27,367 bases of DNA. Origin: a virus. The stretch lies in IMG/VR virus record IMGVR_UViG_3300037808_000735, positions 1 to 27,367 of that record. One strand, 5' to 3'. The translations under genes and the position numbers were made by a program. The notes under the pieces are model-generated. The model worked only from the letters and a program-made list of their open reading frames with translations. It had not been told where the DNA came from and made no database searches. Below are positions 6,166-26,916 of this stretch, piece after piece (the first letter of the stretch is position 1; every line of letters begins with the position of its first letter).

Positions 6166-6381
6166 GTGTTTAAACGTGCAGAAATTGAAGGTGGATGGGA
6201 ATTCATCGATAAAACCCCTGCTGGTGGAATGACTTATTATGATCTAAATTTAGATCAAGTTGCAGTGGTTTATGACGACATCATCAAAGTGTTTAATAGG
6301 AAACGAAGATTACCTATTGAGCACTCGAATGGAAAATATCCTTGTGCTTATGATGTAGATGGTCAGGATTTTTTGCTTTGA
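6166..6381 (+). CDS. Small hypothetical protein
   Basis: A 71-residue protein if it starts at GTG 6166, which has GGAG six bases upstream; a TTG at 6154 would add four residues. Contains WEFIDKTPAGGMTYYDLNLDQVAVVYDD, a beta-strand-rich pattern, then a basic KVFNRKRR stretch. No family recognised and no membrane segment. It closes the operon begun at 5626; the next 190 bases have no convincing gene. Confidence 0.65.
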   Translation: MFKRAEIEGGWEFIDKTPAGGMTYYDLNLDQVAVVYDDIIKVFNRKRRLPIEHSNGKYPCAYDVDGQDFLL

Positions 6382-6440
6382 ATATTTGTAATATGAACTG
6401 GAGTTACTAATTGAAATTATATATAATAATCACCAGGAAG

Positions 6441-7050: not shown

Positions 7051-7125
7051 GCCTTGGTCGTATAATGGTTAGTACAGAAGATTGTCGATCTTCATATAGG
7101 GTTTCGATTACCCTCCAAGGCGCCA
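7051..7125 (+). tRNA. tRNA-Asp(GUC)
   Basis: Acceptor GCCTTGG pairs fully with CCAAGGC. The anticodon loop TTGTCGA gives GTC, and the T arm has the loop TTCGATT. GCCA is encoded at the 3' end. Standard cloverleaf; first tRNA of the cluster. Confidence 0.95.
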
Positions 7126-7403
7126 AATAACCGATTGATGTGAAATGAAGATATTTCACTAAGTCTAGCGCTGCGGTATCGTTAATACATTAGCAAGTAT
7201 AATTTGGAACCTTAGTTGAGATGTATATTATCATATTCAGTAATAGCAGTGATTAAATCACTATATGATATTGTTGATTTTGTTTTCTTGGTATTGTTCT
7301 CTGTTTGTAACATTAATTCACAATTTAACATGTGTTTAATAGTAAAACATCTCTCTTACAAAGAGGAGCCAAAGGAGCGTTACCTTTATTGGATACCAAA
7401 AAT
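7126..7403 (+). other. Spacer between tRNAs with a strong composite stem-loop
   Basis: No convincing gene. GTGAAAT (7140-7146) pairs with ATTTCAC (7153-7159). A larger structure pairs TATCATAT (7229-7236) with ATATGATA (7263-7270), enclosing AGTGATT/AATCACT (7248-7254 and 7256-7262). An unpaired 11-nt segment on one side makes it look like a bulged small-RNA fold. A 65-codon open frame runs through 7216-7413 into tRNA-Trp, but it has no ribosome-binding site and is best ignored. Some of this spacer may be the remains of further tRNAs. Confidence 0.45.
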
Positions 7404-7477
7404 GTCGTGTTAGCTCCAATTGGCAGAGCAGGAGTTTCCAACACTCATGGTTCGGGGTTCGAATCCCTGGCACGGCG
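7404..7477 (+). tRNA. tRNA-Trp(CCA)
   Basis: Acceptor GTCGTGT pairs with GCACGGC using two G-U pairs. The anticodon loop TTCCAAC gives CCA and the T loop is TTCGAAT. The outermost anticodon-stem pair is a G-A mismatch. The 3' CCA is not encoded (GCCC follows). The next RNA element starts only two bases later. Confidence 0.85.
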
Positions 7478-7479
7478 CC

Positions 7480-7551
7480 CGTAATCGATCAAGAGATCAT
7501 TCATCTTTCATAAAGAAGAATAGCTTGGGGCAGTACCAAGGATTACGACCA
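7480..7551 (+). ncRNA. tRNA-like element with CAU anticodon loop and non-canonical D and T loops
   Basis: Acceptor CGTAATC (7480-7486) pairs perfectly with GATTACG (7541-7547), followed by ACCA (7548-7551). The anticodon-type loop TTCATAA (7507-7513) holds CAT. In place of the T arm, CTTGG/CCAAG (7524-7528, 7536-7540) closes a seven-base loop GGCAGTA rather than TTCRANY. The D-arm equivalent is GATC-AAGA-GATC, with no GG in its loop. It sits in line between tRNA-Trp and tRNA-Ala and has a proper 3' end, so it is likely transcribed and processed with them. A second element of the same design lies at 12597-12667. Could be a divergent tRNA-Met/Ile2 or a tRNA mimic. Confidence 0.65.
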
Positions 7552-7568
7552 TATAATGTTATAAAATA

Positions 7569-7644
7569 GGGGAATGGGCTTGGGTACCCAGGATTCTTTT
7601 GCAAGGAGTCAGCTTGATCAGTTCAATTCTGATATTCTCTACCA
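7569..7644 (+). tRNA. tRNA-Ala(UGC)
   Basis: Acceptor GGGGAAT pairs with ATTCTCT, and the third pair is G3-U70, the main alanine identity element. The anticodon loop TTTGCAA gives TGC. The T arm ATCAG-TTCAATT-CTGAT is regular. ACCA is encoded. The D loop GGGTACCC is on a short three-pair stem. Confidence 0.88.
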
Positions 7645-7651
7645 GTTATAT

Positions 7652-7724
7652 GCCTGTGAGCTAATGGATAGACGCCAGCCTTCCAAGCTGTGCTGAGAGG
7701 TTTCGATCACCTCCACAGGCTCCA
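7652..7724 (+). tRNA. tRNA-Gly(UCC)
   Basis: Acceptor GCCTGTG pairs fully with CACAGGC, then TCCA. The anticodon loop CTTCCAA gives TCC. The D arm contains the usual AATGG stretch, and the T loop is TTCGATC. Confidence 0.93.
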
Positions 7725-7749
7725 TTTAATGATTGATGTAATATATTTA

Positions 7750-7833
7750 GTCTTTTGTTCCTGACATCAGTCTTCTAAACTGATCCAAGAGTTAGGTGGA
7801 TGGCGTGAGGTTCGATTCCTCCAGAGGACACCA
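7750..7833 (+). tRNA. Atypical tRNA-Arg(UCU) lacking a normal D arm
   Basis: Acceptor GTCTTTT pairs with AGAGGAC using two G-U pairs, then ACCA. The anticodon stem-loop TCAGT-CTTCTAA-ACTGA gives TCT. The T arm has a TTCGATT loop. Only about ten bases separate the acceptor from the anticodon stem, too few for a D arm, while about 21 bases lie between the anticodon stem and the T arm. These can form a TCCA/TGGA variable hairpin, or even resemble a displaced D arm (TTAGGTGGATGG). It may be non-functional or structurally unusual. Confidence 0.65.
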
Positions 7834-7839
7834 ACAAAC

Positions 7840-7925
7840 GGAAGATAAACTAGTCAGGGACTAGACTTGTTTGCTAAACAATGTGAACCGCAAGGTTTGA
7901 ATTTCGAATATTCTGTCTTCCACCA
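7840..7925 (+). tRNA. tRNA-Ser(GCU)
   Basis: Class II tRNA. Acceptor GGAAGAT pairs with GTCTTCC, followed by ACCA. The anticodon loop TTGCTAA gives GCT. A long variable arm AACC-GCAA-GGTT fits serine. Confidence 0.92.
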
Positions 7926-7930
7926 ATAAA

Positions 7931-8005
7931 GGGCCTTTAGCTTAAAGGTAAAGCACTCCACTCATAATGGATTGAGTCTAGGTTCGATTCCTGGAAGGCC
8001 CACCA
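7931..8005 (+). tRNA. tRNA with CAU anticodon (Met, or Ile2 after lysidine modification)
   Basis: Acceptor GGGCCTT pairs fully with AAGGCCC, then ACCA. The anticodon loop CTCATAA gives CAT and the T loop is TTCGATT. The acceptor has C4-G69 and C5-G68, as in the bacterial tRNA-Ile2 recognised by TilS, so Ile2 is slightly favoured over elongator Met. Canonical throughout, unlike the CAU elements at 7480 and 12597. Confidence 0.92.
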
Positions 8006-8016
8006 TGTTACATAAT

Positions 8017-8088
8017 GCCCTTGTAGTCTAATGGAAAGGCTACAGTCTTCGAAACTGTTATATAGAGGTTCGAATCCTCTCAAGGGTA
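8017..8088 (+). tRNA. tRNA-Arg(UCG)
   Basis: Acceptor GCCCTTG pairs with CAAGGGT through one terminal G-U pair. The anticodon loop CTTCGAA gives TCG. The T arm AGAGG-TTCGAAT-CCTCT is perfect. CCA is not encoded (ACTA follows). Confidence 0.9.
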
Positions 8089-8095
8089 CTAAATT

Positions 8096-8188
8096 GGAAG
8101 TCCCATCCGATGGTTGGCGACGGATGCTGTCTTGAAAACAGTTAGCTCTGAAACGGGCGTTAGGGTTCGATCCCCTAGGCTTCCGCCA
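8096..8188 (+). tRNA. tRNA-Ser(UGA)
   Basis: Class II tRNA of 93 bases. Acceptor GGAAGTC pairs with GGCTTCC (six Watson-Crick pairs and one weak inner pair), then GCCA. The anticodon loop CTTGAAA gives TGA, and there is a long variable arm after the anticodon stem. Confidence 0.92.
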
Positions 8189-8218
8189 TTTTATATACAG
8201 TTGAATAGTTATTCGCTA

Positions 8219-8247
8219 TTGACTTTCATTATTTTATATGGTATACT
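8219..8247 (+). promoter_or_regulatory. Sigma70-type promoter
   Basis: TTGACT (8219-8224), 17-nt spacer, TATACT (8242-8247). It lies 30 bases after the last tRNA of the first group and serves the two genes that follow, and possibly the Gln/Cys tRNAs. Confidence 0.8.
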
Positions 8248-8325
8248 AAAGTTAAATACTATTTCATGAAATGTTATAGTGTAATATTAATAACTGTGGT
8301 AATTAATTTCAGGAGAAATGTAGAT

Positions 8326-8583
8326 ATGACAGAAGCAGAATACGATTTATTTGAACAGTTAACGGTAGTTGATGATCAACAAGCTAAACGAATTACTGAA
8401 TTAGAAGCTAGATTGGAAGAATTAGAGAATAATAACAATATACCTCTGTATTATCCGACTCCACCAACTTTTAAATCTGAATCCCCAGTGTGCAATCTAT
8501 GTGGAATGGATTTTAACGGCACTACTGGATATGTATGTACTAATATGAATTGTCCAATGGGTCGTGGGCCAATAATATCCTAA
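8326..8583 (+). CDS. Small protein with coiled coil and Cys4 zinc-ribbon-like end
   Basis: An 85-residue protein from the ATG at 8326, which has AGGAG upstream; the frame is open further 5' but without a start signal. Residues about 18-37 (QQAKRITELEARLEELENNN) form a short coiled coil suitable for dimerisation. The C-terminal part has C56-x-x-C59 and C71-x4-C76, a likely single zinc site. This is a common design among small phage proteins of unknown role. It is followed after 15 bases by the phosphatase gene, with which it is presumably co-transcribed. Confidence 0.78.
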   Translation: MTEAEYDLFEQLTVVDDQQAKRITELEARLEELENNNNIPLYYPTPPTFKSESPVCNLCGMDFNGTTGYVCTNMNCPMGRGPIIS

Positions 8584-8598
8584 CAATAGAGAAATAAA

Positions 8599-9039
8599 AT
8601 GAAAATACAAAATGTTTCATATGCTGATATTGTTACAGGAGTTCACGTGAATCCAGGAACAAACTCAATGCTTATACAGATTGTTGATCCTGGTATGGAA
8701 TTTCCGTTGCCTAATCATCAGTTCAAAAGTATGCATCAGTTTGAATTTACAGATGTTGAATGTTCTGATGATGTTGGTTGGGAGTCTAGAATAACAAAAG
8801 CACAAACACGAGACATCGCAAATTTAATTAGAAAAGCGAAGCACGGTGATATGAATATAGTAGTTCATTGTGTTGCAGGCGTATGCCGTTCTGGTGCTGT
8901 GGTTGAAGTAGCAACGATGGCAGGTTTTGATGATATTCCTGGAATATTCAGACTTCCAAATATATATGTTAAAAGGATGTTGATGGAAGAATTTGGATAT
9001 TATGTAACAAAATCTGACTTTGATAATATATTTAAATAA
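8599..9039 (+). CDS. Dual-specificity / tyrosine-phosphatase-like protein
   Basis: A 146-residue protein with the cysteine-phosphatase signature H90-C91-V-A-G-V-C96-R97-S98, that is HCX5RS, preceded by a hydrophobic beta strand (NIVVH). Upstream residues including D73 and the SDDVGWESRI loop could supply the general acid. The size fits a minimal DSP or PTP-like domain. Proteins of this kind occur in large phages and may act on host phosphoproteins, RNA 5' ends or nucleotides; the sequence does not show which. A second Cys (C96) inside the loop could form a redox pair with the nucleophile. It is flanked by tRNA genes on both sides, with the tRNA-Gln four bases downstream of its stop. Confidence 0.82.
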   Translation: MKIQNVSYADIVTGVHVNPGTNSMLIQIVDPGMEFPLPNHQFKSMHQFEFTDVECSDDVGWESRITKAQTRDIANLIRKAKHGDMNIVVHCVAGVCRSGAVVEVATMAGFDDIPGIFRLPNIYVKRMLMEEFGYYVTKSDFDNIFK

Positions 9040-9043
9040 CATT

Positions 9044-9117
9044 TCTCCTGTCGTCTAATGGTCGGACAATAGACTTTGAATCTGTTTATGAAGGTTCGAA
9101 TCCTTCCAGGAGATCCA
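9044..9117 (+). tRNA. tRNA-Gln(UUG)
   Basis: Acceptor TCTCCTG pairs fully with CAGGAGA, then TCCA. The anticodon loop CTTTGAA gives TTG and the T loop is TTCGAAT. It starts four bases after the phosphatase stop. Confidence 0.95.
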
Positions 9118-9123
9118 ATTAAT

Positions 9124-9201
9124 GCACATGTACCAAAGTGGTTTAATGGAACAGATTGCAAATCTGTATAGTCGTTGGTTCGAATCCAATCATGTGCTCC
9201 A
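9124..9201 (+). tRNA. tRNA-Cys(GCA)
   Basis: Acceptor GCACATG pairs fully with CATGTGC, then TCCA. The anticodon loop TTGCAAA gives GCA. The T arm TTGG-TTCGAAT-CCAA is regular, with a slightly long D region. Confidence 0.94.
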
Positions 9202-10976: not shown

Positions 10977-11312
10977 ATGACATATGATGTTAAATATAAC
11001 TCGATTGATGAAAACAGTCAAATAGAAGTTTTAAGGGTGTATATAGATATTGAATTCTTATCTGATGTACCAGTGATAATAAATATAATAGACGAGTCTG
11101 GTAAAAAATATGGTTCATTAAGTCATATTAACCATCCTAGTTTTGAAGCAACTAGAACTCTACTAGAGGAAAAAGGATATTTGCTAGTAGAAAGGGGATG
11201 GTGTAATGGTGATGTAATATTAAGAGATTTTTATTTCAATGATAAGTTACTTAAAGCAGGCACGAGTTTTTATTCAGCAGTTGCTATGGGTATACGCTCT
11301 CAGTTTAATTGA
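10977..11312 (+). CDS. Hypothetical protein, convergent with the capsid-like gene
   Basis: A 111-residue protein from the ATG at 10977, which has a strong GGAGGAG; the open frame upstream runs through the tRNA-like element and should be ignored. Beta-rich in character (EVLRVYIDIEFLSDVPVIINIIDESG). No family recognised. Its stop overlaps the 3' end of the minus-strand gene by eight bases, and there is no terminator between them, so transcription from the two sides collides here. Confidence 0.72.
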   Translation: MTYDVKYNSIDENSQIEVLRVYIDIEFLSDVPVIINIIDESGKKYGSLSHINHPSFEATRTLLEEKGYLLVERGWCNGDVILRDFYFNDKLLKAGTSFYSAVAMGIRSQFN

Positions 11313-12162
11313 TATCAAATTTCATTAACATTTCGGAACCGACAGAAGATAATGGATTCATTGCTAAAGCATATCTATTGATGATTCCGATGTTATCTTG
11401 CATAGATTTGGAGAATGTGCTTGTTACAATTTCTTGTTGATAAGTTCCCATTATTAAAGATGAAGAAGCACCGAATTCATCATTTTCCTCTTTAAGTCCT
11501 ATGAACGCTTTAGTTGCACTAATGTCTGGATTTACATAGTATAGAGTTTTACCTACACGTCCAACTATTAATCTTTTGCTTCTAGATGTTACATATTCAC
11601 TTCCTCCAATATACGCATTCAATGCTGATATACTAGCAGCTGCTTTATATGGAAGGATAACAAAGGCATCATACGTTCGGAAATTAGGTGTATTCATTTT
11701 CATCACTAATTCTTGTACCCTCTGAGTGATCTCGAATAATGATGTTTCAGAGCTTCCTTTATCTGATAATGTTAAAACTGGTGTAGATAATGAGTTATTA
11801 TCGAGATAATTTAGTAACGTATAATCTTCATTTGATTCTACTATACTCTTCAATAATTTACTTGCATAATTTTGTCCTGTATCTCCATATTGAATAGATA
11901 TATCTTTAATAGCTTCTGTAGATAAACCAGTTTGTAGTGGGTTAGATGTATCGGTATTTACTTGAAGAACACTTTCAACTGCTTCATAAGCATTTGAACC
12001 AGTTTGTTTCTTAATGTTTATTATCTTACCACTTGGTAATTTCATTGGTACTATAGTAGCAATTTCACGCATTAATGATAAAGTTGGAAGCTCCTGAAAA
12101 TTTGTGATTACATCATTAAAATTATATTGAGCTGCATTGTTTACTATTGTATTTTCGTTCAT
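11305..12162 (-). CDS. Capsid-fold protein, diverged T4 gp23/gp24-like
   Basis: A 285-residue minus-strand protein with AAGGAATAAC before its ATG. Residues 28-50 (LSLMREIATIVPMKLPSGKI...) match the gp23 segment RDIVGVQPMTGPTGLIF. Residues 158-180 (NTPNFRTYDAFVILPYKAA) match the gp23 VVASPEVAS region. Residues 205-270 (KTLYYVNPD...IGLKE..DEFGASSSLIMGTYQQE...RYALAMNPL) follow the gp23 C-terminal order: YVDPYA, then VGYKG.NEMDAG, PYVPL and RYGIG.NPF. It is much shorter than gp23 (521 residues) or gp24 (about 427), lacking the N-terminal propeptide and insertion domain. One of two minus-strand genes in the window, and away from structural genes. Could be a minor vertex or decoration protein, or a paralogue with another job. 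Confidence 0.62.
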   Translation of the reverse strand: MNENTIVNNAAQYNFNDVITNFQELPTLSLMREIATIVPMKLPSGKIINIKKQTGSNAYEAVESVLQVNTDTSNPLQTGLSTEAIKDISIQYGDTGQNYASKLLKSIVESNEDYTLLNYLDNNSLSTPVLTLSDKGSSETSLFEITQRVQELVMKMNTPNFRTYDAFVILPYKAAASISALNAYIGGSEYVTSRSKRLIVGRVGKTLYYVNPDISATKAFIGLKEENDEFGASSSLIMGTYQQEIVTSTFSKSMQDNIGIINRYALAMNPLSSVGSEMLMKFDIN

Positions 12163-12670: not shown

Positions 12671-12813
12671 TTCAACGTAGACATCTCTAAATGGAATGTT
12701 TCTATAGTATGAGTGTTATGTTCAAAGGCAGTAAAATTCCAGCAGATTATATTAAGAAACAGTTACCGTACAAAAGAGTAGAGTACGAATATACAAGGAT
12801 GTTAGATTTATGA
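12671..12813 (+). pseudogene. Broken DUF285 repeat gene
   Basis: Starts four bases after the tRNA-like element. FNVDISKWNVS is the middle of a DUF285 repeat, interrupted by a stop. In another frame, MFKGSKIPADYIKKQLPYKR...MLDL is the C-terminal cap of the next gene (MFKGNKIPADS...KKQLPFKR...VLDL). So this is the fused head and tail of a deleted copy. Its terminal TGA overlaps the ATG of the intact gene, as between genes in the array at 24385. Confidence 0.8.
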
Positions 12814-13457
12814 TTAAAATCAGCGACAAGGCACATCTAAAGAGTATTATTAATGAAAGATTAGATGATGCAGATTTAAATGATCTTGATGTTTCTAAAG
12901 TGACTGATATGGATTCTGTGTTTTATGAGTCTCAATTCAATGGGGATATCTCTAAATGGAATGTCTCTAAAGTAACTAATATGAGTTATATGTTCTATAA
13001 TTCTCAATTCAATGGGGACATCTCTAAATGGAATGTTTCTAAAGTAACTGATATGTCTAGTATGTTCCAAGATTCTCAATTCAATGGGGATATATCTAAA
13101 TGGAATGCTTCTAAAGTGAAAAATATGAGTTATATGTTTTATAATTCTCCGTTCAACAGGGACATCTCTAAATGGAAGACTTCTAATGTGACTAGTACAT
13201 ACTCAATGTTTATAAATTCTCCGTTCAACGGAGATATCTCTAAATGGGATACTTCTAAAGTAACTAATATGAGTTATATGTTCTATAATTCTCAATTCAA
13301 TGGAGATATTTCTAAGTGGAATACTTCTAAAGTGATGTATACAACCTCTATGTTCAAAGGTAATAAAATTCCAGCAGATTCAATAGAAGATTATATTAAG
13401 AAACAACTGCCATTTAAAAGAATCGGTAGGAAATTTATGAAGGTGTTAGATTTGTAA
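12810..13457 (+). CDS. DUF285 (BspA-like) leucine-rich-type repeat protein
   Basis: A 215-residue protein made of seven repeats of 24 residues with consensus (D/N)VSKVT(D/N)MSYMF.NSQFNGDISKW. Before them is an N-terminal cap (HLKSIINERLDDADLNDLDVS) and after them a C-terminal cap with KKQLPFKR. There is no signal peptide, so it is probably cytoplasmic or in the virion. DUF285 repeats form an LRR-like solenoid and are known from bacterial surface proteins and some large phages; the phage role is unknown. The same caps and repeats recur in the array at 24385-27367, though this copy uses SKV where most of those use SNV, so it has diverged as a separate lineage. Confidence 0.85.
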   Translation: MIKISDKAHLKSIINERLDDADLNDLDVSKVTDMDSVFYESQFNGDISKWNVSKVTNMSYMFYNSQFNGDISKWNVSKVTDMSSMFQDSQFNGDISKWNASKVKNMSYMFYNSPFNRDISKWKTSNVTSTYSMFINSPFNGDISKWDTSKVTNMSYMFYNSQFNGDISKWNTSKVMYTTSMFKGNKIPADSIEDYIKKQLPFKRIGRKFMKVLDL

Positions 13458-13476: not shown

Positions 13477-13505
13477 TTACCAAACTCCTCTTTTCGTGGT
13501 ATAAT
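13477..13505 (+). promoter_or_regulatory. Probable promoter of the lipoprotein operon
   Basis: TTACCA (13477-13482), 17-nt spacer, TATAAT (13500-13505). The 13-base core GGTATAATTAAAT recurs at 22436-22448 upstream of the VWA gene. The -35 is poor, so it may need a phage factor; it lacks the TATAAATA of T4 late promoters. Confidence 0.5.
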
Positions 13506-13537: not shown

Positions 13538-14104
13538 ATGATACACACTAAACTATTATTAGCGGGAGCGATTACTGCATCATTATCTGGATGTGTAACG
13601 AATCCACTAACATCAAATGATTCTGATTTATCTACTATGGGACCAGAAACACAAGTACCGAGTTGGTACTTAAATTTTCCAGAGGATGATGATGTGATTT
13701 ATGCATCAGGTACAGGTATCTCAGATGACCTTCAATTCAGTATGAAAAAGGCTACTCACTCTGCTAAAGTGTCATTAGGAGATAAGATTGCTTCTGATGT
13801 AGGTGCTCAGTTCAAATCTTATACTGCTGATAATAGTTCAGGTGGACAAGGTCGAACAACATCAGAAAGTGAGAGTGTATCGAAATCTGGATTTAAAGAT
13901 GTATCGATTCGTGGATATGATATTATAGAGAAGGCTGCATTCAAAGACTCAACTGGATTTTATAGAACTTACGTTCTTGTATCTCTATCATTAGATGGTC
14001 CTCAATTCACTGAAGGTGATTATAATAAACCACAAGTGATTGAGATTAACACTTATAGTGAAGGGGATCATAATAAAGCTTCTGAAGCGTTTAAGAGATT
14101 TTAA
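13538..14104 (+). CDS. LPP20-family outer-membrane lipoprotein, FlgP-like
   Basis: A 188-residue protein with GGGAG before its ATG. The first 19 residues are a lipoprotein signal: basic start, hydrophobic core, lipobox L16-S-G-C19. Mature sequence has PSWYLNFPEDDDVIYASGTGIS, then helix KKATHSAKVSLGDKIASDV, and later the strand GFYRTYVLVSLSL. This is the LPP20 fold order (PxWY, A.G.g, A...Ar..La..i, ..R.yvL). Vibrio FlgP, an outer-membrane flagellar H-ring component, belongs to this family. Here the lipoprotein would be made in the infected cell and sent to the outer membrane. It is directly followed by another exported small protein. It could instead act in lysis or superinfection exclusion; the flagellar link is an inference from neighbours. 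Confidence 0.82.
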   Translation: MIHTKLLLAGAITASLSGCVTNPLTSNDSDLSTMGPETQVPSWYLNFPEDDDVIYASGTGISDDLQFSMKKATHSAKVSLGDKIASDVGAQFKSYTADNSSGGQGRTTSESESVSKSGFKDVSIRGYDIIEKAAFKDSTGFYRTYVLVSLSLDGPQFTEGDYNKPQVIEINTYSEGDHNKASEAFKRF

Positions 14105-14362
14105 GTGAAAAACGTCATCTTTATGATGTTGGTTGTTGGGAACACACCCGTATATTCATTTGGATTCGGGGATGTTGTGATGGAATTAACTTATATCATA
14201 TCACCTGCTTATAAAGAGTTGTATGGACCTATTGAGGTTGTTAAATCACCTAGATCTGATACATCGATTAAAAGTAACGAAATTGAGTATTGTGTTGATA
14301 ATAAGTGTGTTACAGTATTGAGGGTGGAGACTATAAAAGAAGAACGAGAGATCATAGAATGA
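14105..14362 (+). CDS. Small exported protein coupled to the lipoprotein
   Basis: An 85-residue protein starting at a GTG directly after the lipoprotein stop, so translation must be coupled. Residues 1-20 look like a signal peptide (MKNVIFMMLVVGNTPVYSFG, probable cleavage after the Ser/Phe-Gly area). The mature part has two cysteines in IEYCVDNKCVTVLRVE that could form a disulfide in the periplasm. No family recognised. Likely a partner of the LPP20-like lipoprotein, much as flagellar FlgO, FlgP and FlgT are encoded near each other in Vibrio, though I see no direct resemblance to FlgO or FlgT. Confidence 0.7.
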   Translation: MKNVIFMMLVVGNTPVYSFGFGDVVMELTYIISPAYKELYGPIEVVKSPRSDTSIKSNEIEYCVDNKCVTVLRVETIKEEREIIE

Positions 14363-14648
14363 TCCGAATATCCTGGGCATATGATGTAATCTCCTTGCAT
14401 CGCTTAGCGCTGGGGGATTATTGTGATCCGCGCCAGCTCTAAATTAGGTATAATATGTTAAAAATGTGCAATTTTAACGTTTTAAGATAAATAAAGATAG
14501 GGATTGATCGGATTCCCTTAAAATAACCGGCAGAATAGATGTTGAGTTGTATAGTATACTGTCAAAGAACAGATCTTGCAAACTCCTAAAATAGTAAAAC
14601 AAAGGCCACTTTGGTCATTATTTAATTACAATTCTTAGGAGAATTATT
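14363..14648 (+). other. Structured untranslated leader between lipoprotein and flagellin-like genes
   Basis: No gene is visible. GTAATCTCC (14386-14394) can pair with GGGGGATTAT (14412-14421), enclosing CGC-TTA-GCG. As an alternative, GCTGG (14409-14413) can pair with CCAGC (14433-14437) around GGAT/ATCC. A third structure pairs TTTTAAG (about 14481-14487) with CTTAAAA near 14517-14523, including GGG/CCC. TATAAT at 14449 lacks a -35. Just before the next gene, GGCC-ACTTT-GGTC is a small hairpin upstream of the AGGAGAA ribosome-binding site. I found no sigma54 or sigma28 flagellar promoter. Confidence 0.45.
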
Positions 14649-14888
14649 ATGTTTGGAATTTCCAATCTACAAAGCCCTGTTATGGGTTCTATTGACCGTA
14701 CAGATACTCGTATGAGTCAAGTTGGTAAAATGTTATCAACTGGTAAAAATGATTTAAACGCTGCTCAAACGGGTATGGTGACACGTCTTAATGCATCTAT
14801 TGCTGGATTTGATGCAGCACAAGATAATATTACAAATCTATACACATTCTTAACTCTGCTATCAAAACACGTGACTTCAAAAAATTGA
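14649..14888 (+). CDS. Miniature flagellin-N-terminus-like protein
   Basis: A 79-residue protein with AGGAGAA upstream. Residues 21-62 (RMSQVGKMLSTGKNDLNAAQ...TRLNASIAGFDAAQDNITN) follow the D0/D1 segment of flagellin, where the pattern is SMERLSSGyKINSAkDDAAGLqISNRLnaqsrGLd.A..NanDg. It lacks the rest of flagellin, including the variable domain and C-terminal helix. The gene stops just after an A6 run (14878-14883). A one-base shift there would append LMIVQSTIGTLLNGW and end at a TAA three bases before the FlaG ATG, the normal spacing for coupled genes. So a frameshift, programmed or mutational, is plausible. Followed by a FlaG homologue, which supports the flagellar reading. Confidence 0.6.
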   Translation: MFGISNLQSPVMGSIDRTDTRMSQVGKMLSTGKNDLNAAQTGMVTRLNASIAGFDAAQDNITNLYTFLTLLSKHVTSKN

Positions 14889-14935
14889 TGATCGTTCAAA
14901 GCACTATAGGCACGTTACTAAACGGATGGTAAATA

Positions 14936-15301
14936 ATGGATACTTCAGTAATACAAACTAACATTTCATCATCAATTTCTATTCCAGGAGCAATGGTACC
15001 AGATCGAGATAATTCTAGAGTTATTGAAGTAGATGCATTAGATCTTAAAGCAACTGAGACTGTTGCTAATGTTACTGAAACTGATATCATTAACGTGAAC
15101 AAAGCGTTATATAATCAGAATCACTCAGTTCGATTTGAGATGGTTGAAGATCACTCGGTAATAAAAATAACAGATACTACTACTGATAAAGTCATTCGAG
15201 AAATTCCATCCGAAACATCTAGAGCAATTATCGATGCAATCAAAGAAAAATTAGCTAATAATGAAGATGTTATAGGAACATTAATCAATGAAATTGTCTA
15301 A
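14936..15301 (+). CDS. FlaG-family protein
   Basis: A 121-residue protein. Residues 65-91 (VRFEMVEDHSVIKITDTT...VIREIP) match the FlaG core, whose pattern is LqFsvde...vVkvvD..TgEVIRqIPpEe. An N-terminal disordered region precedes it, as in bacterial FlaG. In Vibrio, flaG lies with the flagellin genes and before the filament cap gene, and loss of FlaG alters filament length in several bacteria. Here it follows the flagellin-like ORF and overlaps an HNH nuclease gene by 14 bases. The C terminus (NNEDVIGTLINEIV) ends with the IGTLINEI motif typical of FlaG, and echoes the IGTLLNGW of the shifted frame upstream. I regard the family assignment as good; function in a phage is unknown. Confidence 0.8.
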   Translation: MDTSVIQTNISSSISIPGAMVPDRDNSRVIEVDALDLKATETVANVTETDIINVNKALYNQNHSVRFEMVEDHSVIKITDTTTDKVIREIPSETSRAIIDAIKEKLANNEDVIGTLINEIV

Positions 15302-15599
15302 GTGTGAATTGTGTGATAGAGATATACCTGATAATGAAATCTCTATGCACCATCTGATACCTAAAACATTTAAAGGTAAACGAGATGATTCTAATTTATT
15401 AACTTTACATAAAGTGTGTCATATGAAGTTACATTCACTTTTCTCTGAGAGAGATATGTTACATTTATACAATACTTTGGATATGATTAAAACTGATAAG
15501 AATATAGAGAAATTTGTAAAATGGATAATCAAGAAGCCGATTGAATTCAATGATAGCAGTAAAGACTCTATATCAAGAAAAGGTAAACGAAGGTATTAA
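15288..15599 (+). CDS. HNH endonuclease
   Basis: A 103-residue protein with a compact HNH domain. C6-x-x-C9 and C44 with H49 or a nearby residue make the structural zinc site, H21-H22 is the catalytic His region (MHHLIPK), N36 is the central Asn, and H41-x-x-C-H45 closes the motif. The C-terminal 50 residues are basic and helical, probably DNA-binding. It overlaps the FlaG gene by 14 bases and its stop overlaps that of the convergent GIY-YIG gene by four. Freestanding HNH genes in T4-like phages are often homing endonucleases. Confidence 0.85.
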   Translation: MKLSKCELCDRDIPDNEISMHHLIPKTFKGKRDDSNLLTLHKVCHMKLHSLFSERDMLHLYNTLDMIKTDKNIEKFVKWIIKKPIEFNDSSKDSISRKGKRRY

Positions 15600-15886
15600 T
15601 TGAATTCTTCTGGGTGAATAGGTTGATCTAAAAACAACTTTAACGCTACTAGAATCTCATGTAATGTAACTTCTTTGAACCACTCACCTTTTAACCGTTT
15701 ATTTGAGAATTTTTGGTGAAGATATTTTTCCGCTTTTTCAGGTTTGTAGCGTTCTTCAATGTGAATGACATTGATTTCATGAGCATTACCAGTTTGTAAC
15801 GATTTCAATCTATTTGTGATATTATTCGTTATTCCTATTTTATAATACCCGTTGCATTCTAATACATATAGTTGATCACTTTTCAT
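15596..15886 (-). CDS. GIY-YIG-type nuclease, T5orf172/MUG113-like
   Basis: A 96-residue minus-strand protein. The N terminus LYVLECNGYYKIGITNNITNRLKSLQTGN is a GIY-YIG domain in the T5orf172 style: YVLE replaces GIY, YYKIG18 is the YIG part, R26 the catalytic Arg. E53 and the EKYLHQKFSNKRLKGEWF segment carry the later conserved Glu, His and GEWF. There is no separate DNA-binding domain. It is convergent with the HNH gene and overlaps its stop. Such proteins occur as freestanding phage nucleases; target unknown. Confidence 0.82.
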   Translation of the reverse strand: MKSDQLYVLECNGYYKIGITNNITNRLKSLQTGNAHEINVIHIEERYKPEKAEKYLHQKFSNKRLKGEWFKEVTLHEILVALKLFLDQPIHPEEFN

Positions 15887-22466: not shown

Positions 22467-24392
22467 ATGAAGAATTTTTTAAGTGAGATTGCTGGAAGTG
22501 GTATTAAATCTCAGAAAGGTGTTACATTTTCAACATCAACAATGAGTACACCTTTCGTAGTCAATTTGATCAACAAAATATCAGACACGTCTGGTAAATC
22601 AGTTGCTACGATTAAAGCAGATGTACAATTTCAAAGTGAAATAGCTTTAGAAAAAATGAAAGATGGACCTGATAGATTCTATGCAGATGCTAGAAAGAAT
22701 GTTATTGAAAGCATATTGTTTAGTATGATTAAAGAGATTGATCATACAGAAAAATTCAATGTCGAAGAGTTTAAAATACTCTTTAATTATATTCTAGTTA
22801 AGAATAAGAATTTCCTCAAAATCAAAGATCCTATGACAGGTAAACGTGTTAAACTTAATATCATGTACACTCCTATGCCGTCCTTTGTGAAACAACCTGA
22901 TTGGGTTAAAAACGTTGATACTGCATCAGCGTCTCCTGAGGGTGATATTGTATTTAATATTAACTTTATTAATCAATTAATCACATACGCTTCTTATAAA
23001 GAGATAAAACCGAAAGGTAGCATATACAAATCTAATGGTGGTTTAGTATCAGATAATTTAGCGTACATTGAGTTTCTAATTCTACATGAAATATATCATA
23101 TCATACACGGAGATCATTTCTTTCAATCAAAGAAAGAAGGTATGACACCAATTGTCCAGAATTATTTAGGTGATTTCATCAGCAATGCTAATCTAGTTAA
23201 AGCTGGGTATGAGCAATTACCAATTGGATTATATTCATCTAATTATAACTATGATAATTATACTACAATGAATGATATGCAGGATGATATTATAGAAGAT
23301 ATAGAATCTATGACTGATGTTCAGAAACAGAATGCTGACGATCAGATGGATCATCATATGGATGATAATCATGAGAAGTTAGATTCTACATCTGATGGTC
23401 AAGATGGTCAAGATGGTCAAGATGGTCAAGATGGTCAAGATGGAGAATCGCGAGATGATTTGTTGGATGATGCTATGAAAAAATCATCAGATGATATTGT
23501 TGATGCAGCTGATGAAATGACTGCTGATGAAATTGAAAATGCTATTAAGAAAATGAAAGAAGAACAGCAAAATGAATCTGCTGCAGATAGACGAAAATCA
23601 ATTGACTCTCGAACTAAACGCGCTGAAGAGAGAGATAAAAACATCAAAGATCTTAATCAAAATTCTGATTTTAAACCTATCAACTGGCTTAAACTGCTAC
23701 GAATGATGATTCCTAAAAAGAAAGTTAAAGAAGAGGAGTCTATAACTAAGTTGAGTAGACGTACTAGAGCGTCTCTAGCAACAGCTAGCACTAACAGCAA
23801 GATCAGCATCAAAGCTGGTATAATCAAAGATGAGGAAAATGAACAAAATCTAATGTTTGTACTTGACTCTTCTGGGAGTATGAGTGGTATAATTGAAGAT
23901 ATTAGCATCGATATATTAAAGTTGATTGATAAGAGTAAATCTACAGGTGTGAAAAATGTGTATATTATCAGGTTTGACTCTGATTATGCTATGTATAAGG
24001 TTATTATAGATCCAAGAGGACGGAACCACACGTACATTGAGTTGAAGCGTCCTATGGATATTCTAACAAAAGATGGAAGTAGACTAGATTTTATCGGAAC
24101 TACGAAACCCTTGAAAAATCTATTTAAATTATCATGGGGTGGTGGAACAATTTTCCCTAAGGGAGTAGTTTTAATTATACAGAAACTACTGAAGATGAAA
24201 TTCAATCAAGTTCTTTTCACTGATTCAGATATATTAACTGAAGAAAATATTAAAATGCTGAATATAGCATCAAGAACTGGAACAAAACGACCATACTCAT
24301 TTAATGTATTATTAGATAAAAAAGATACGTATGAACAAGTGTCCAAAGCATTAGGTGGACGATATAAGTATATGAGCTACATTAGTGATTAA
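22467..24392 (+). CDS. Metallopeptidase-like / VWA-domain partner of MoxR (DUF2201-like)
   Basis: A 641-residue protein. The N-terminal half carries H207-E208-I-Y-H211 in ILHEIYHIIHGDH, a zinc HExxH motif in the place where DUF2201-type proteins have their putative metallopeptidase domain. A low-complexity acidic linker follows (residues about 290-400, including five DGQ repeats). The C-terminal third is a VWA-like domain with the MIDAS motif D467-S-S469-G-S471 in FVLDSSGSMSG, and later the FTDSDI strand. The pairing of MoxR ATPase and VWA protein is well known in bacteria; here it is next to the ATPase with only 43 bases between. A proteolytic activity switched by the ATPase is one hypothesis. 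Confidence 0.83.
   Translation: MKNFLSEIAGSGIKSQKGVTFSTSTMSTPFVVNLINKISDTSGKSVATIKADVQFQSEIALEKMKDGPDRFYADARKNVIESILFSMIKEIDHTEKFNVEEFKILFNYILVKNKNFLKIKDPMTGKRVKLNIMYTPMPSFVKQPDWVKNVDTASASPEGDIVFNINFINQLITYASYKEIKPKGSIYKSNGGLVSDNLAYIEFLILHEIYHIIHGDHFFQSKKEGMTPIVQNYLGDFISNANLVKAGYEQLPIGLYSSNYNYDNYTTMNDMQDDIIEDIESMTDVQKQNADDQMDHHMDDNHEKLDSTSDGQDGQDGQDGQDGQDGESRDDLLDDAMKKSSDDIVDAADEMTADEIENAIKKMKEEQQNESAADRRKSIDSRTKRAEERDKNIKDLNQNSDFKPINWLKLLRMMIPKKKVKEEESITKLSRRTRASLATASTNSKISIKAGIIKDEENEQNLMFVLDSSGSMSGIIEDISIDILKLIDKSKSTGVKNVYIIRFDSDYAMYKVIIDPRGRNHTYIELKRPMDILTKDGSRLDFIGTTKPLKNLFKLSWGGGTIFPKGVVLIIQKLLKMKFNQVLFTDSDILTEENIKMLNIASRTGTKRPYSFNVLLDKKDTYEQVSKALGGRYKYMSYISD
23394..23438 (+). repeat. 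Five perfect 9-nt tandem repeats coding DGQ
   Basis: GATGGTCAA is repeated five times without a change, giving (Asp-Gly-Gln)5 in the acidic linker of the VWA protein, followed by a partial GATGGAGAA. The absence of silent differences points to recent slippage expansion. Confidence 0.95.
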
Positions 24393-25176
24393 AATAAATA
24401 GTAAAACACATTTACAGAATATTATCAATGAAAGATCTGATGATGCTGATCTTAATGACCTTGATGTTTCTAATGTTACTGATATGAGTAATGTGTTCAT
24501 GCACTCTAAATTTAATGGTGATATAAGTGAGTGGGACATCTCTAATGTTACTGATATGAGTGATATGTTCAATCAATCACCATTCAATGGTGATATAAGT
24601 GAGTGGAATGTTTCTAATGTTACTGATATGAGTTATATGTTTGGTAGTTCTAAATTCAATGGTGATATAGGTAAGTGGGATGTTTCTAATGTTACTGATA
24701 TGAGATTTATGTTTAATAGTTCTAAATTCAATGGTGATATAAGTAAATGGGATGTGTCTAATGTAACTAATATGAGTTATATGTTTGGTAGTTCTATATT
24801 TAATAATGATATAAGTAAATGGGATGTTTCTAATGTTACTGATATGAGTTATATGTTTGGTAGTTCTATATTTAATAATGATATAAGTAAATGGGATACT
24901 TCTAATGTTACTGATATGAGTTATATGTTTAGTAGTTCTAAATTCAATAGTGATATAAGTGAGTGGAATGTGTCTAATGTTACTGATATGAGTTATATGT
25001 TATATAATAATTCACCATTTAATGGTGATATAAGTAAATGGGATACTTCTAATGTTACTGATATGAGTTATATGTTCCATAATTCCCCTATAAAAGCAAA
25101 ATCTTGGGATGAGTATTTAACTTACGCGATTCCTAGAAAACGTTTAGGTCTCTTTATGGAAATATTGGAATTATGA
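24385..25176 (+). CDS. DUF285 repeat protein, array copy 1
   Basis: A 263-residue protein from GTG 24385, overlapping the VWA stop by eight bases. Nine repeats of about 24 residues (DVSNVTDMSYMFGSSKFNGD..ISKW type) lie between an N cap (HLQNIINERSDDADLNDLDVS) and a C cap (SPIKAKSWDEYLTYAIPRKRLGLFMEILEL split over the end). One repeat carries an extra Asn (MLYNNSPF). No signal peptide. Expected fold is an LRR-like solenoid with variable surface positions at the residues after MS and before FNGD. Role unknown; see the array finding. Confidence 0.85.
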   Translation: MIKINSKTHLQNIINERSDDADLNDLDVSNVTDMSNVFMHSKFNGDISEWDISNVTDMSDMFNQSPFNGDISEWNVSNVTDMSYMFGSSKFNGDIGKWDVSNVTDMRFMFNSSKFNGDISKWDVSNVTNMSYMFGSSIFNNDISKWDVSNVTDMSYMFGSSIFNNDISKWDTSNVTDMSYMFSSSKFNSDISEWNVSNVTDMSYMLYNNSPFNGDISKWDTSNVTDMSYMFHNSPIKAKSWDEYLTYAIPRKRLGLFMEILEL

Positions 25177-25961
25177 TTAAAATAGGTAATAGAACACATT
25201 TACAGAATATTATCAATGAAAGATCTGATGATGCTGATCTTAATGACCTTGATGTTTCTAATGTTACTGATATGAGTTGGGTTTTTAAAGGATCTACTTT
25301 CAATGGTGATATAAGTCAATGGGATATGTCTAATGTTACAGATACAGATTATATGTTCAAAGACTCTGAGTTCAATGGTGATATAAGTAAATGGGATATT
25401 TCTAATGTTACAGATATGGACTTTATGTTCAAAAACTCTAATTTTAATGGTGACATAAGTGAGTGGGACGTCTCCAACGTAACTACTATACGTAACACGT
25501 TCAGTACATCATCATTCAATGGTGATATAAGTAAATGGGATGTGTCTAATGTAACTAATATGAGATTTATGTTCAATAATTCTAAGTTTAATGGTGATAT
25601 AAGTGAGTGGGATGTGTCTAATGTTACTGATATGAGTGATATGTTTGGTGACTCTGAATTCAATGGTGATATAAGTGGCTGGGATGTATCTAATGTTACC
25701 AATATGAGTTTTATGTTCAATGATTCTCGATTTAATGGTGATATAAGTAAATGGGATGTATCTGAAGTTATTAATATGAGTTTTATGTTCAATAATTCAC
25801 CATTCAATGGTGACATAAGTAATTGGGATGTATCTAATGTAATTGATGATAATTATATGTTCAATCATACCCCTATAAAAGCAAAATCTTGGGATGAGTA
25901 TTTAACTTACACGATTCCTAGAAAACGTTTAGGTCTCTTTATAGATATATTGGAATTGTGA
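25173..25961 (+). CDS. DUF285 repeat protein, array copy 2
   Basis: A 262-residue protein whose ATG overlaps the previous stop (ATGA). Nine repeats with the same caps as copy 1; the first 130 bases and last 100 bases of the gene are nearly identical to those of copy 1, whereas internal repeats differ more. Positions differing between copies fall mainly in the MxxMFxxSxF part of the repeat. One repeat departs most (TTIRNTFSTSSF). It has no ribosome-binding site of its own beyond the preceding coding sequence, so translation is coupled. Confidence 0.85.
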   Translation: MIKIGNRTHLQNIINERSDDADLNDLDVSNVTDMSWVFKGSTFNGDISQWDMSNVTDTDYMFKDSEFNGDISKWDISNVTDMDFMFKNSNFNGDISEWDVSNVTTIRNTFSTSSFNGDISKWDVSNVTNMRFMFNNSKFNGDISEWDVSNVTDMSDMFGDSEFNGDISGWDVSNVTNMSFMFNDSRFNGDISKWDVSEVINMSFMFNNSPFNGDISNWDVSNVIDDNYMFNHTPIKAKSWDEYLTYTIPRKRLGLFIDILEL

Positions 25962-26203
25962 TTAAAATAGGTAATGAAACTCATTTACAGAATATTATCA
26001 ACGAAAGATCTGATCTTAACGACTTAGATGTATCTGGTATAACTGATATGAAGGATGTGTTCAAACGTTCAATGGTGATATAAGTAATTAGGATGTAACA
26101 AGTGTGATTAATATGTTCAATTATAATAGATGTTAAGGATTATAATAAACAGCAAGAACCTCATAGAAATATGGGCATTTTCATAGAAATATTAGAGTTG
26201 TGA
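25958..26203 (+). pseudogene. Broken DUF285 copy 3
   Basis: Begins with GTG and the usual N cap but lacks nine bases encoding the DDA of DDADLND. After one repeat it goes out of frame (VFKRSMVI, stop at 26081) where other copies read FNGDIS. Parts of further repeats and the C cap (MGIFIEILEL) follow in other frames. An internal deletion of some seven repeats plus small indels explains it. The start and end junctions still have the array's normal overlaps. Confidence 0.85.
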
Positions 26204-26916
26204 TTAAAGTAAGAGATAAGCATCATTTAAAAGAGATAATTAATATGGGTCCAGATGATGCTGATCTTAATGATTTAGATATATCTAATGTTATTGATAT
26301 GGATTCCATGTTCAAGGATTCTGAATTCAATGGGAATATAAGTGATTGGGATGTATCTAATATATTCAATGCACGGGCGATGTTCAAAAATTCTAAATTT
26401 AATGGTGATATAAGTGGATGGAATATATCGAGATTAACTAGTACAAGATCAATGTTTAGTGGTTCTGAGTTTAACGGTGATATAAGTGGATGGAATGTAT
26501 CTAAAGTTATTGACATGAGTAGAATGTTTAGGGATTCTGAGTTTAATGGTGATATAAGTGGATGGAATGTATCTAAAGTTATTGACATGAGTAGAATGTT
26601 TGAAAATTCTAAGTTTAATGGTGATATAAGTAAATGGGACGTGTCTAATGTCATTAGAATGAGTAGAATGTTTGAAAATTCTAAGTTTAATGGTGATATA
26701 AGTAAATGGGTGACCTCTAAATTAATATACACGAATAGCATGTTTTATGGTTCTGAGTTTAATAGAGATATTACTGAATGGAATGTGTCTGATATTGCTG
26801 ATATGAGTGATATGTTTGGCAATTCGCCTATAAAAGCGGATTCATGGGACGAATATTTAACTTACATGATACCAATGAAACGCATGGGCATTTTTATGGA
26901 GATATTAGAGTTATGA
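26200..26916 (+). CDS. DUF285 repeat protein, array copy 4
   Basis: A 238-residue protein from GTG 26200, overlapping the end of the broken copy. Eight repeats with more divergent sequence than copies 1 and 2 (RLTSTRSMF, KLIYTNSMF); two neighbouring repeats (KVIDMSRMF, twice) are close to identical, as expected from a recent internal duplication. N cap HLKEIINMGPDDADLNDLDIS, C cap with DSWDEYLTYMIPMKRMGIFMEILEL split at its end. Same predicted solenoid, no signal peptide. Confidence 0.85.
   Translation: MIKVRDKHHLKEIINMGPDDADLNDLDISNVIDMDSMFKDSEFNGNISDWDVSNIFNARAMFKNSKFNGDISGWNISRLTSTRSMFSGSEFNGDISGWNVSKVIDMSRMFRDSEFNGDISGWNVSKVIDMSRMFENSKFNGDISKWDVSNVIRMSRMFENSKFNGDISKWVTSKLIYTNSMFYGSEFNRDITEWNVSDIADMSDMFGNSPIKADSWDEYLTYMIPMKRMGIFMEILEL

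Follow-up and report, generated by a model that had tools for sequence, protein, structure and literature searches.

A flaG gene beside a recurrent lipoprotein pair in a T4-like phage

Judged from its sequence, flaG is a real and unusual gene of the phage analysed here, and the region in which it stands (13538-15301) looks like the result of one captured flaG rather than like a four-gene flagellum kit; in the same comparisons a lipoprotein pair encoded next to it appears common in phages and FlaG does not. The region is best described as two unrelated modules lying side by side in a T4-like phage: module 1 (13538-14362), with a predicted lipoprotein and its small membrane-anchored partner, and module 2 (14649-15301), with a short ORF and flaG. 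The explanation as a whole, in which FlaG would act at the flagellar export-gate protein FlhA, module 1 at the cell surface and module 2 would be an accessory insertion, is in our judgement about evenly poised between right and wrong, this estimate being a joint one for all its parts.

The phage and the region 13538-15301

The stretch of DNA analysed (the window) is a virus record of 27,367 bases with G+C of 0.324, which appears to belong to a T4-like phage genome: the first large ORF resembles the large subunit of T4-type topoisomerase II, the best matches being those to Vibrio phages (about 40%), with Campylobacter phages at 44% over 77% of the query. The same virus population is represented by two further IMG/VR records, which are longer (53,159 and 65,294 bases): one of them differs from the window at one place (8437) in 20,000 aligned bases, the other at none in 19,552, and over 13538-15301 both are identical to the window in every base. 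Belonging to the same population, they provide no independent evolutionary evidence. The features considered below are collected in Table 1.

Table 1. Features of the window, with their coordinates and the basis of assignment
Feature	Position	Strand	Basis and remarks
tRNA genes, n=7 (Asp, Trp, Met, Arg, Ser, Gln, Cys)	7051-9201		tRNA gene search
tRNA-like places, weaker, n=2	7652-7721 and 7334-7387		Rfam search
Candidate sigma-70 promoter (TTACCA, 17, TATAAT, TG before -10)	13477..13505	+	consensus match only; 32 bases before lipoprotein start
Predicted lipoprotein, 188 aa, LPP20 fold, lipobox cysteine 19	13538..14104	+	module 1; relatives, profile, predicted structure
Partner, 85 aa, GTG start, N-terminal hydrophobic stretch, conserved C-terminal motif around cysteine	14105..14362	+	module 1
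TATAAT hexamer, no matching -35	14449..14454	+	by eye; upstream of module 2; not called as promoter by scan
Terminator-like hairpin	14604..14616	+	directly before module 2; between modules
ORF of 79 aa, marginal flagellin N-terminal resemblance	14649..14888	+	module 2; probably truncated near 14845
flaG, 121 aa	14936..15301	+	module 2; Pfam, NCBIfam and bacterial relatives
HNH endonuclease ORF	15288..15599	+	overlaps flaG end by 14 bases; PF01844 35.2 bits, cut-off 21.4
T5orf172/MUG113-type (GIY-YIG-like) nuclease ORF	15596..15886	-	PF13455 61.4 bits, PF10544 44.6 bits, both above cut-off

Between the two modules lies a gap of 286 bases (14363-14648) with no called gene, which holds the TATAAT hexamer and the terminator-like hairpin. 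Promoter-like sites are not in excess in the scanned stretch (22, compared with 20.1, sd 4.5, in shuffles), while terminator-like hairpins number 2 with 0.8 (sd 0.9) expected; no unusual RNA fold was detected at 14355-14470 (z -0.81). Ten Rfam matches were obtained at E<=0.5, nine of them of tRNA type and one a sub-threshold plastid match overlying a tRNA, and none at this threshold in 13538-15301.

Several other traits of this virus were recorded along the way. A capsid-like ORF at 11305-12162 on the minus strand, isolated among plus-strand genes, matches PHROG 24114 (E 1.2e-29) and the PHROG 138 major head protein (E 1.8e-6), Pfam Gp23 being reached with 22.8 bits, just below the cut-off of 24.4. 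BspA-like DUF285 repeat proteins are encoded at 12810-13457 (scanned, PF03382 E=4.8e-59) and, by similarity seen by eye, at 24385-25176, 25173-25961 and 26200-26916, the last three sharing 79-89% DNA identity among themselves in places. In the first 40 kb of the 65-kb record (loci L015 and L016) inspection by eye revealed, among replication genes, several ORFs on the minus strand, about 294-436 aa long and near-identical in start sequence, and some replication genes appear split, as by introns or inteins. A 74-aa ORF at 10038-10262 of L016, also noted by eye, has a lipobox-like cysteine after a hydrophobic stretch and stands among small membrane ORFs; it may belong to a lysis region.

FlaG and the short ORF upstream of it

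The flaG product matches PF03646 with E=3.7e-11 and 43.5 bits (cut-off 23.8) over residues 42-117, a match repeated in the genome search, so that the FlaG assignment of 14936-15301 made in the sequence-only reading is borne out. Two NCBIfam FlaG models match as well, at E 1.2e-5 and 8.9e-4, both below their strict cut-offs. The closest bacterial relative among 33 loci in bacterial genome contigs, found by a scan that used eight-residue patterns from the query and is therefore biased to those patterns, belongs to Balneatrix alpica (37% over 69 residues), and among 274 genomes drawn from the same class 29 match at E<=0.001, the best being again the Balneatrix genome (35%). With the bacterial FlaG family (PF03646; Campylobacter jejuni, Pseudomonas) the phage protein shares the profile match above cut-off, a similar size and a predicted helix-strands-helix order; it differs in being phage-encoded and in its identity to the bacterial FlaGs found, which in these alignments does not exceed about 37%, and its function is a predicted one. 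The structure model is of low confidence (mean pLDDT 57.9), its best structural match being an unrelated protein (Z 3.6), with the FlaG yvyC (2hc5) at rank 6 (Z 3.2); a profile of 19 FlaGs matches 6jsx and 2hc5, which, 18 of the 19 being bacterial, tells little about the phage member. Codon score (0.475) and G+C (0.317, compared with 0.324 in the window) are phage-like, suggesting an old resident and no fresh capture.

Outside this virus population FlaG was not met: there is none at E<=0.01 in 50,697 phage records and none at E<=1 in 72,556 plasmids. In viral contigs the sole matches of the single-protein scan came from the same virus, and the alignment scan with the motif TD[KE]VIR[EQ]I returned 7 stretches with the motif and 2 relatives, both of the same virus, it being understood that scans of this kind require exact motifs, so that more divergent phage FlaGs could escape, and may omit records of the window genome or of a very close genome. 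No FliS was found in the two longer records of the virus. In Balneatrix the gene order is flagellin, flagellin, flaG and then ORFs read as fliD and fliS, and flagellin often precedes flaG in bacteria: by pattern, a flagellin-like ORF lies near flaG in 9 of the 13 bacterial rows that could be read (of 30 loci; two rows are one gene). A stricter pattern, too strict for spirochaete flagellins, gave 4 of 33 bacterial loci, and a wider one recovered many more flagellin-like ORFs and supplied the 81-sequence profile used below.

The ORF preceding flaG had been described from sequence as a mini-flagellin, a designation that could not be sustained. Flagellin_N (PF00669) is the sole Pfam family at E<=1 (E=0.014), and its 15.9 bits fall short of the cut-off of 26.6, as do the 12.4 bits at the same place in the longer records; in NCBIfam nothing matches at E<=1. 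The Pfam model is matched by none of 20 shuffles of the ORF. With home-made flagellin N-terminal profiles its score was reached by 79 of 2000 shuffles (profile from 9 sequences) and by 10 of 5000 (profile from 81 sequences; 33 of 5000 once the tail is removed), the latter profile giving 6.8 bits to another ORF of the same phage and 8.4 to the short ORF (101 proteins scored). Seven FlaG-bearing bacterial genomes contained nothing better than E 0.19, and Balneatrix flagellins gave no match at E<=1. Since the codon signal, which is strong to about 14840-14845 (0.557 over the first 61 codons), then drops in frame, the ORF looks truncated. From about 14830 the -1 frame meets no stop until four bases ahead of the flaG start; its codon score is borderline (below 98% of in-frame windows and above 96% of out-of-frame windows). 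A core of flagellin N- and C-terminal parts broken by a frame change was considered and rejected: the -1 tail resembled the flagellin C-terminal helix by eye, profile support was lacking, the tail doing no better against a flagellin C-terminal profile than 238 of 5000 shuffles, and Flagellin_C (PF00700) has no match at E<=1 in the two longer records. A resemblance to an “endolysin” of Campylobacter phages (15 tblastn records, Campylobacter phages throughout, E 0.1 to 0.7) and a match to PHROG 38472 at E 0.0059 were taken as chance or a generic helix, the E of 5e-5 for the endolysin in a local search being a small-database artefact. All this points to a shortened ORF with possible flagellin N-terminal origin, not to a demonstrated mini-flagellin.

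The state of both genes bears on whether module 2 works at all. FlaG and the short ORF could be idle passengers, that is, a captured flagellar fragment which is decaying and is kept beside mobile nucleases; we regard this as possible, if somewhat doubtful. The truncated look of the upstream ORF speaks for such a course, as do the HNH and GIY-YIG-like ORFs flanking flaG (the latter scoring 10.9 bits with the GIY-YIG model, below cut-off) and the occurrence of FlaG in one virus population only in searches of phage records and viral contigs. It is opposed by the intact flaG frame, the phage-like codons and the FlaG core kept in spite of strong divergence, which together suggest selection. In the preferred explanation module 2 would instead have been inserted as an accessory element next to homing-type nucleases, long enough ago to diverge strongly from bacterial FlaG.

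The lipoprotein and its partner

Cysteine 19 of the module 1 lipoprotein is invariant in 41 aligned sequences, which confirms the lipobox proposed there from sequence; relatives number at least 422 in IMG/VR viral contigs (alignment scan), and of the 80 loci kept out of these 67 conform to a strict lipobox pattern, the remaining 13 mostly having a near form such as LNAC. Of the good LPP20/FlgP match proposed at the same time, the LPP20 part is seen in the family and in the predicted fold, and not in a profile search with the window protein itself: 28 of the 41 sequences match LPP20 (PF02169) at E<=0.1, with 2.8e-9 as the best value; the window protein falls outside these 28 and has no Pfam match at E<=1. 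The predicted structure (mean pLDDT 65.7) includes a confident beta-alpha-beta-beta core at pLDDT over 90, for which Helicobacter pylori Lpp20 (5ok8) came first among structures with Z 9.2 and rmsd 4.0 over 97 residues, the next having Z 7.1. The profile matches 5ok8 at E 0.0014, and Foldseek with the model gave no match at E<=0.001, 5ok8 being second at E 0.17. On the strength of the model, the protein is one with a lipobox and a predicted LPP20 fold; with LPP20 lipoproteins such as H. pylori Lpp20 it has in common the lipobox, the predicted core and the family-level profile match, and it differs from them in being phage-borne, in having its own conserved partner and in lying itself below Pfam detection.

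The first scan revealed close relatives in five other viral records. Cultured phages contribute seven records (four Melnitz isolates, Mosig and HTVC008M under two accessions), that is, phages of Pelagibacter and Methylophilales, in which the relatives are annotated only as hypothetical. Pelagibacter is a host not known to have flagella, so that membership in LPP20 says nothing about flagella. FlgP is of the LPP20 type, being part of the flagellar disk or ring and found with flagellar genes; an FlgP-type family call for the phage lipoprotein received no NCBIfam match. Other small ORFs with hydrophobic starts flank the lipoprotein gene in Melnitz-3 (locus L024, 5235-7184) and Mosig (locus L025, 5472-6886). 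A link between the lipoprotein and CsgG was considered and dropped, as CsgG occurs in 2 of 13 records searched (Melnitz-3 and HTVC008M) and is absent from the two records of the window's virus.

Sequence comparison of these loci has also shown the lipoprotein and its small, apparently membrane-anchored partner to be a pair recurring in other phages. A partner profile built from twelve partners, all from the loci searched and without the window's own partner, yielded 28 rows at E<=0.1. These come from 26 of the 82 distinct records, and every one of them lies immediately behind the lipoprotein. The window partner was missed at this threshold; on its own it obtained 10.7 bits, and among 5000 shuffles, 4856 of them scored, 2 did as well. 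The partner of locus L031 has no match at E<=0.01 among cultured phages. Partner-less loci mostly have other neighbours, for example a glutaredoxin-like ORF or a cell wall hydrolase.

The arrangement of module 1, with a lipoprotein encoded next to a small anchored protein, brings to mind a lysis pair like a two-component spanin, made of an outer-membrane lipoprotein and an inner-membrane partner, and in Melnitz-3, a Methylophilales phage, the next gene is annotated as a cell wall hydrolase. In two-component spanins, however, an i-spanin with a coiled coil precedes a short o-spanin lipoprotein, whereas here the lipoprotein comes first, has 188 aa and contains a folded LPP20 domain, and other relatives adjoin the glutaredoxin-like ORF instead; a lysis pair is therefore unlikely, and it would be our second guess for module 1 after surface exclusion.

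Two modules and their proposed roles

All four ORFs are where the sequence-only reading had placed them, consecutive on one strand, and it had taken them for one cassette (FlgP-like lipoprotein, exported partner, mini-flagellin and FlaG) that jointly modifies the host flagellum. FlaG is real and the lipoprotein family has the LPP20 fold, which is FlgP's type, but the lipoprotein and partner recur without FlaG, FlaG is in no other virus found, and the flagellin resemblance stays below cut-off. For half of the supposed cassette a finding is on hand that the sequence-only reading had itself named as refuting it, lipoprotein homologues lying in other contexts, Pelagibacter phages included, and a terminator-like hairpin separates the modules. 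FlaG is present in both longer records of this virus; at cut-off it is found in none of 49 lipoprotein-bearing records outside it (0 of the 5 first found and 0 of 44 later ones), most being fragments, so that absence there is no proof. The second of these tests searched 45 records, the 44 lipoprotein-bearing ones and Campylobacter phage CP220, none of which reached the cut-off; out of the 77 later loci (L029-L105) it took in 41. A sub-threshold FlaG match in one lipoprotein-bearing record (L106, record G031, 6326-6391; 14.4 bits over 22 profile positions) is probably due to chance. FlaG co-occurrence, NCBIfam and the host range of relatives reveal no tie between the lipoprotein pair and flagella. 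Modification of the host flagellum thus stays plausible for FlaG, while joint action of four flagellar relatives seems very improbable. Just as improbable is the reuse of FlaG and the helical short ORF as virion parts, for example in a fibre: the codon score of the first part of the short ORF is such as a highly expressed gene might have, but neither ORF matches a structural family (Pfam, PHROG, NCBIfam), both stand among non-structural genes, and the T4 late-promoter motif is absent from the region.

For module 1 we would propose placement in the host envelope during infection with alteration of the surface, most probably for superinfection exclusion, by analogy and not by sequence. Envelope placement agrees with the lipobox and with the anchored partner, and the T5 lipoprotein Llp is a phage surface-exclusion protein. 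Melnitz is described as having an incomplete curli pore and a proposed S-layer-type protein (PMC9004378), so that related phages do appear to place proteins in the host envelope. Llp and the S-layer-type protein resemble module 1 in being phage-encoded and, for module 1 by prediction, envelope-placed.

For FlaG the literature suggests a more definite role. FlaG of Campylobacter jejuni is reported to attach to the export-gate protein FlhA close to where FliS docks, so that less flagellin is delivered and filament length is limited, the mean filament measuring 5.30 micrometres without FlaG and 3.03 with it (PMC12445086); Pseudomonas fluorescens F113 without flaG has longer flagella (PMC8036289), and FlaG is counted as a filament-length protein (PMC7286023). 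By analogy, phage FlaG would be made during infection of a host that would have to be flagellated and would compete with FliS-flagellin for FlhA at the export gate, as Campylobacter FlaG does; filament growth would slow and the balance tip to shorter filaments. The phage might gain by sparing protein synthesis, by reducing motility or by leaving flagellum-using phages less access. A bolder version, to which we lend rather little credence, is that a lytic T4-like phage jams the gate, its FlaG replacing FliS-flagellin at FlhA and the short ORF serving as a decoy export substrate. If so, filaments of infected cells would no longer be extended, the cells would move more slowly and offer flagellum-using phages a poor target, and the phage would encode an inhibitor of a type III secretion gate.

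A search of titles and abstract openings, mostly outside subscription journals, found among the papers listed no published phage FlaG and no description of this lipoprotein family. Change of host flagella by phages is already known, and FlaG in a T4-like phage would be another part with another point of action. The account of FRphi describes a temperate phage with a replacement flagellin, FliCP, and an RNA-guided repressor, TldR, as the first known prophage-encoded flagellin, and states that a superinfection benefit was sought and none found (PMC13418256). As there, a phage gene seems aimed at the host flagellum; FRphi has a whole flagellin with a repressor and is temperate, whereas the window has FlaG in a T4-like phage and no full flagellin was seen. 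FlaGrab of Campylobacter phages, which according to the title of its report binds flagella (PMC7099621), is likewise a phage protein acting on the host flagellum, the name shared with FlaG being a coincidence.

With at least several hundred relatives in viral contigs, the lipoprotein family lends itself clearly, in its two-gene form, to tests of surface exclusion. With FlaG, a T4-like phage would have a further route to flagellum control, one that acts on export and not on the filament subunit and that offers a simple test: one small gene and one measurable length.
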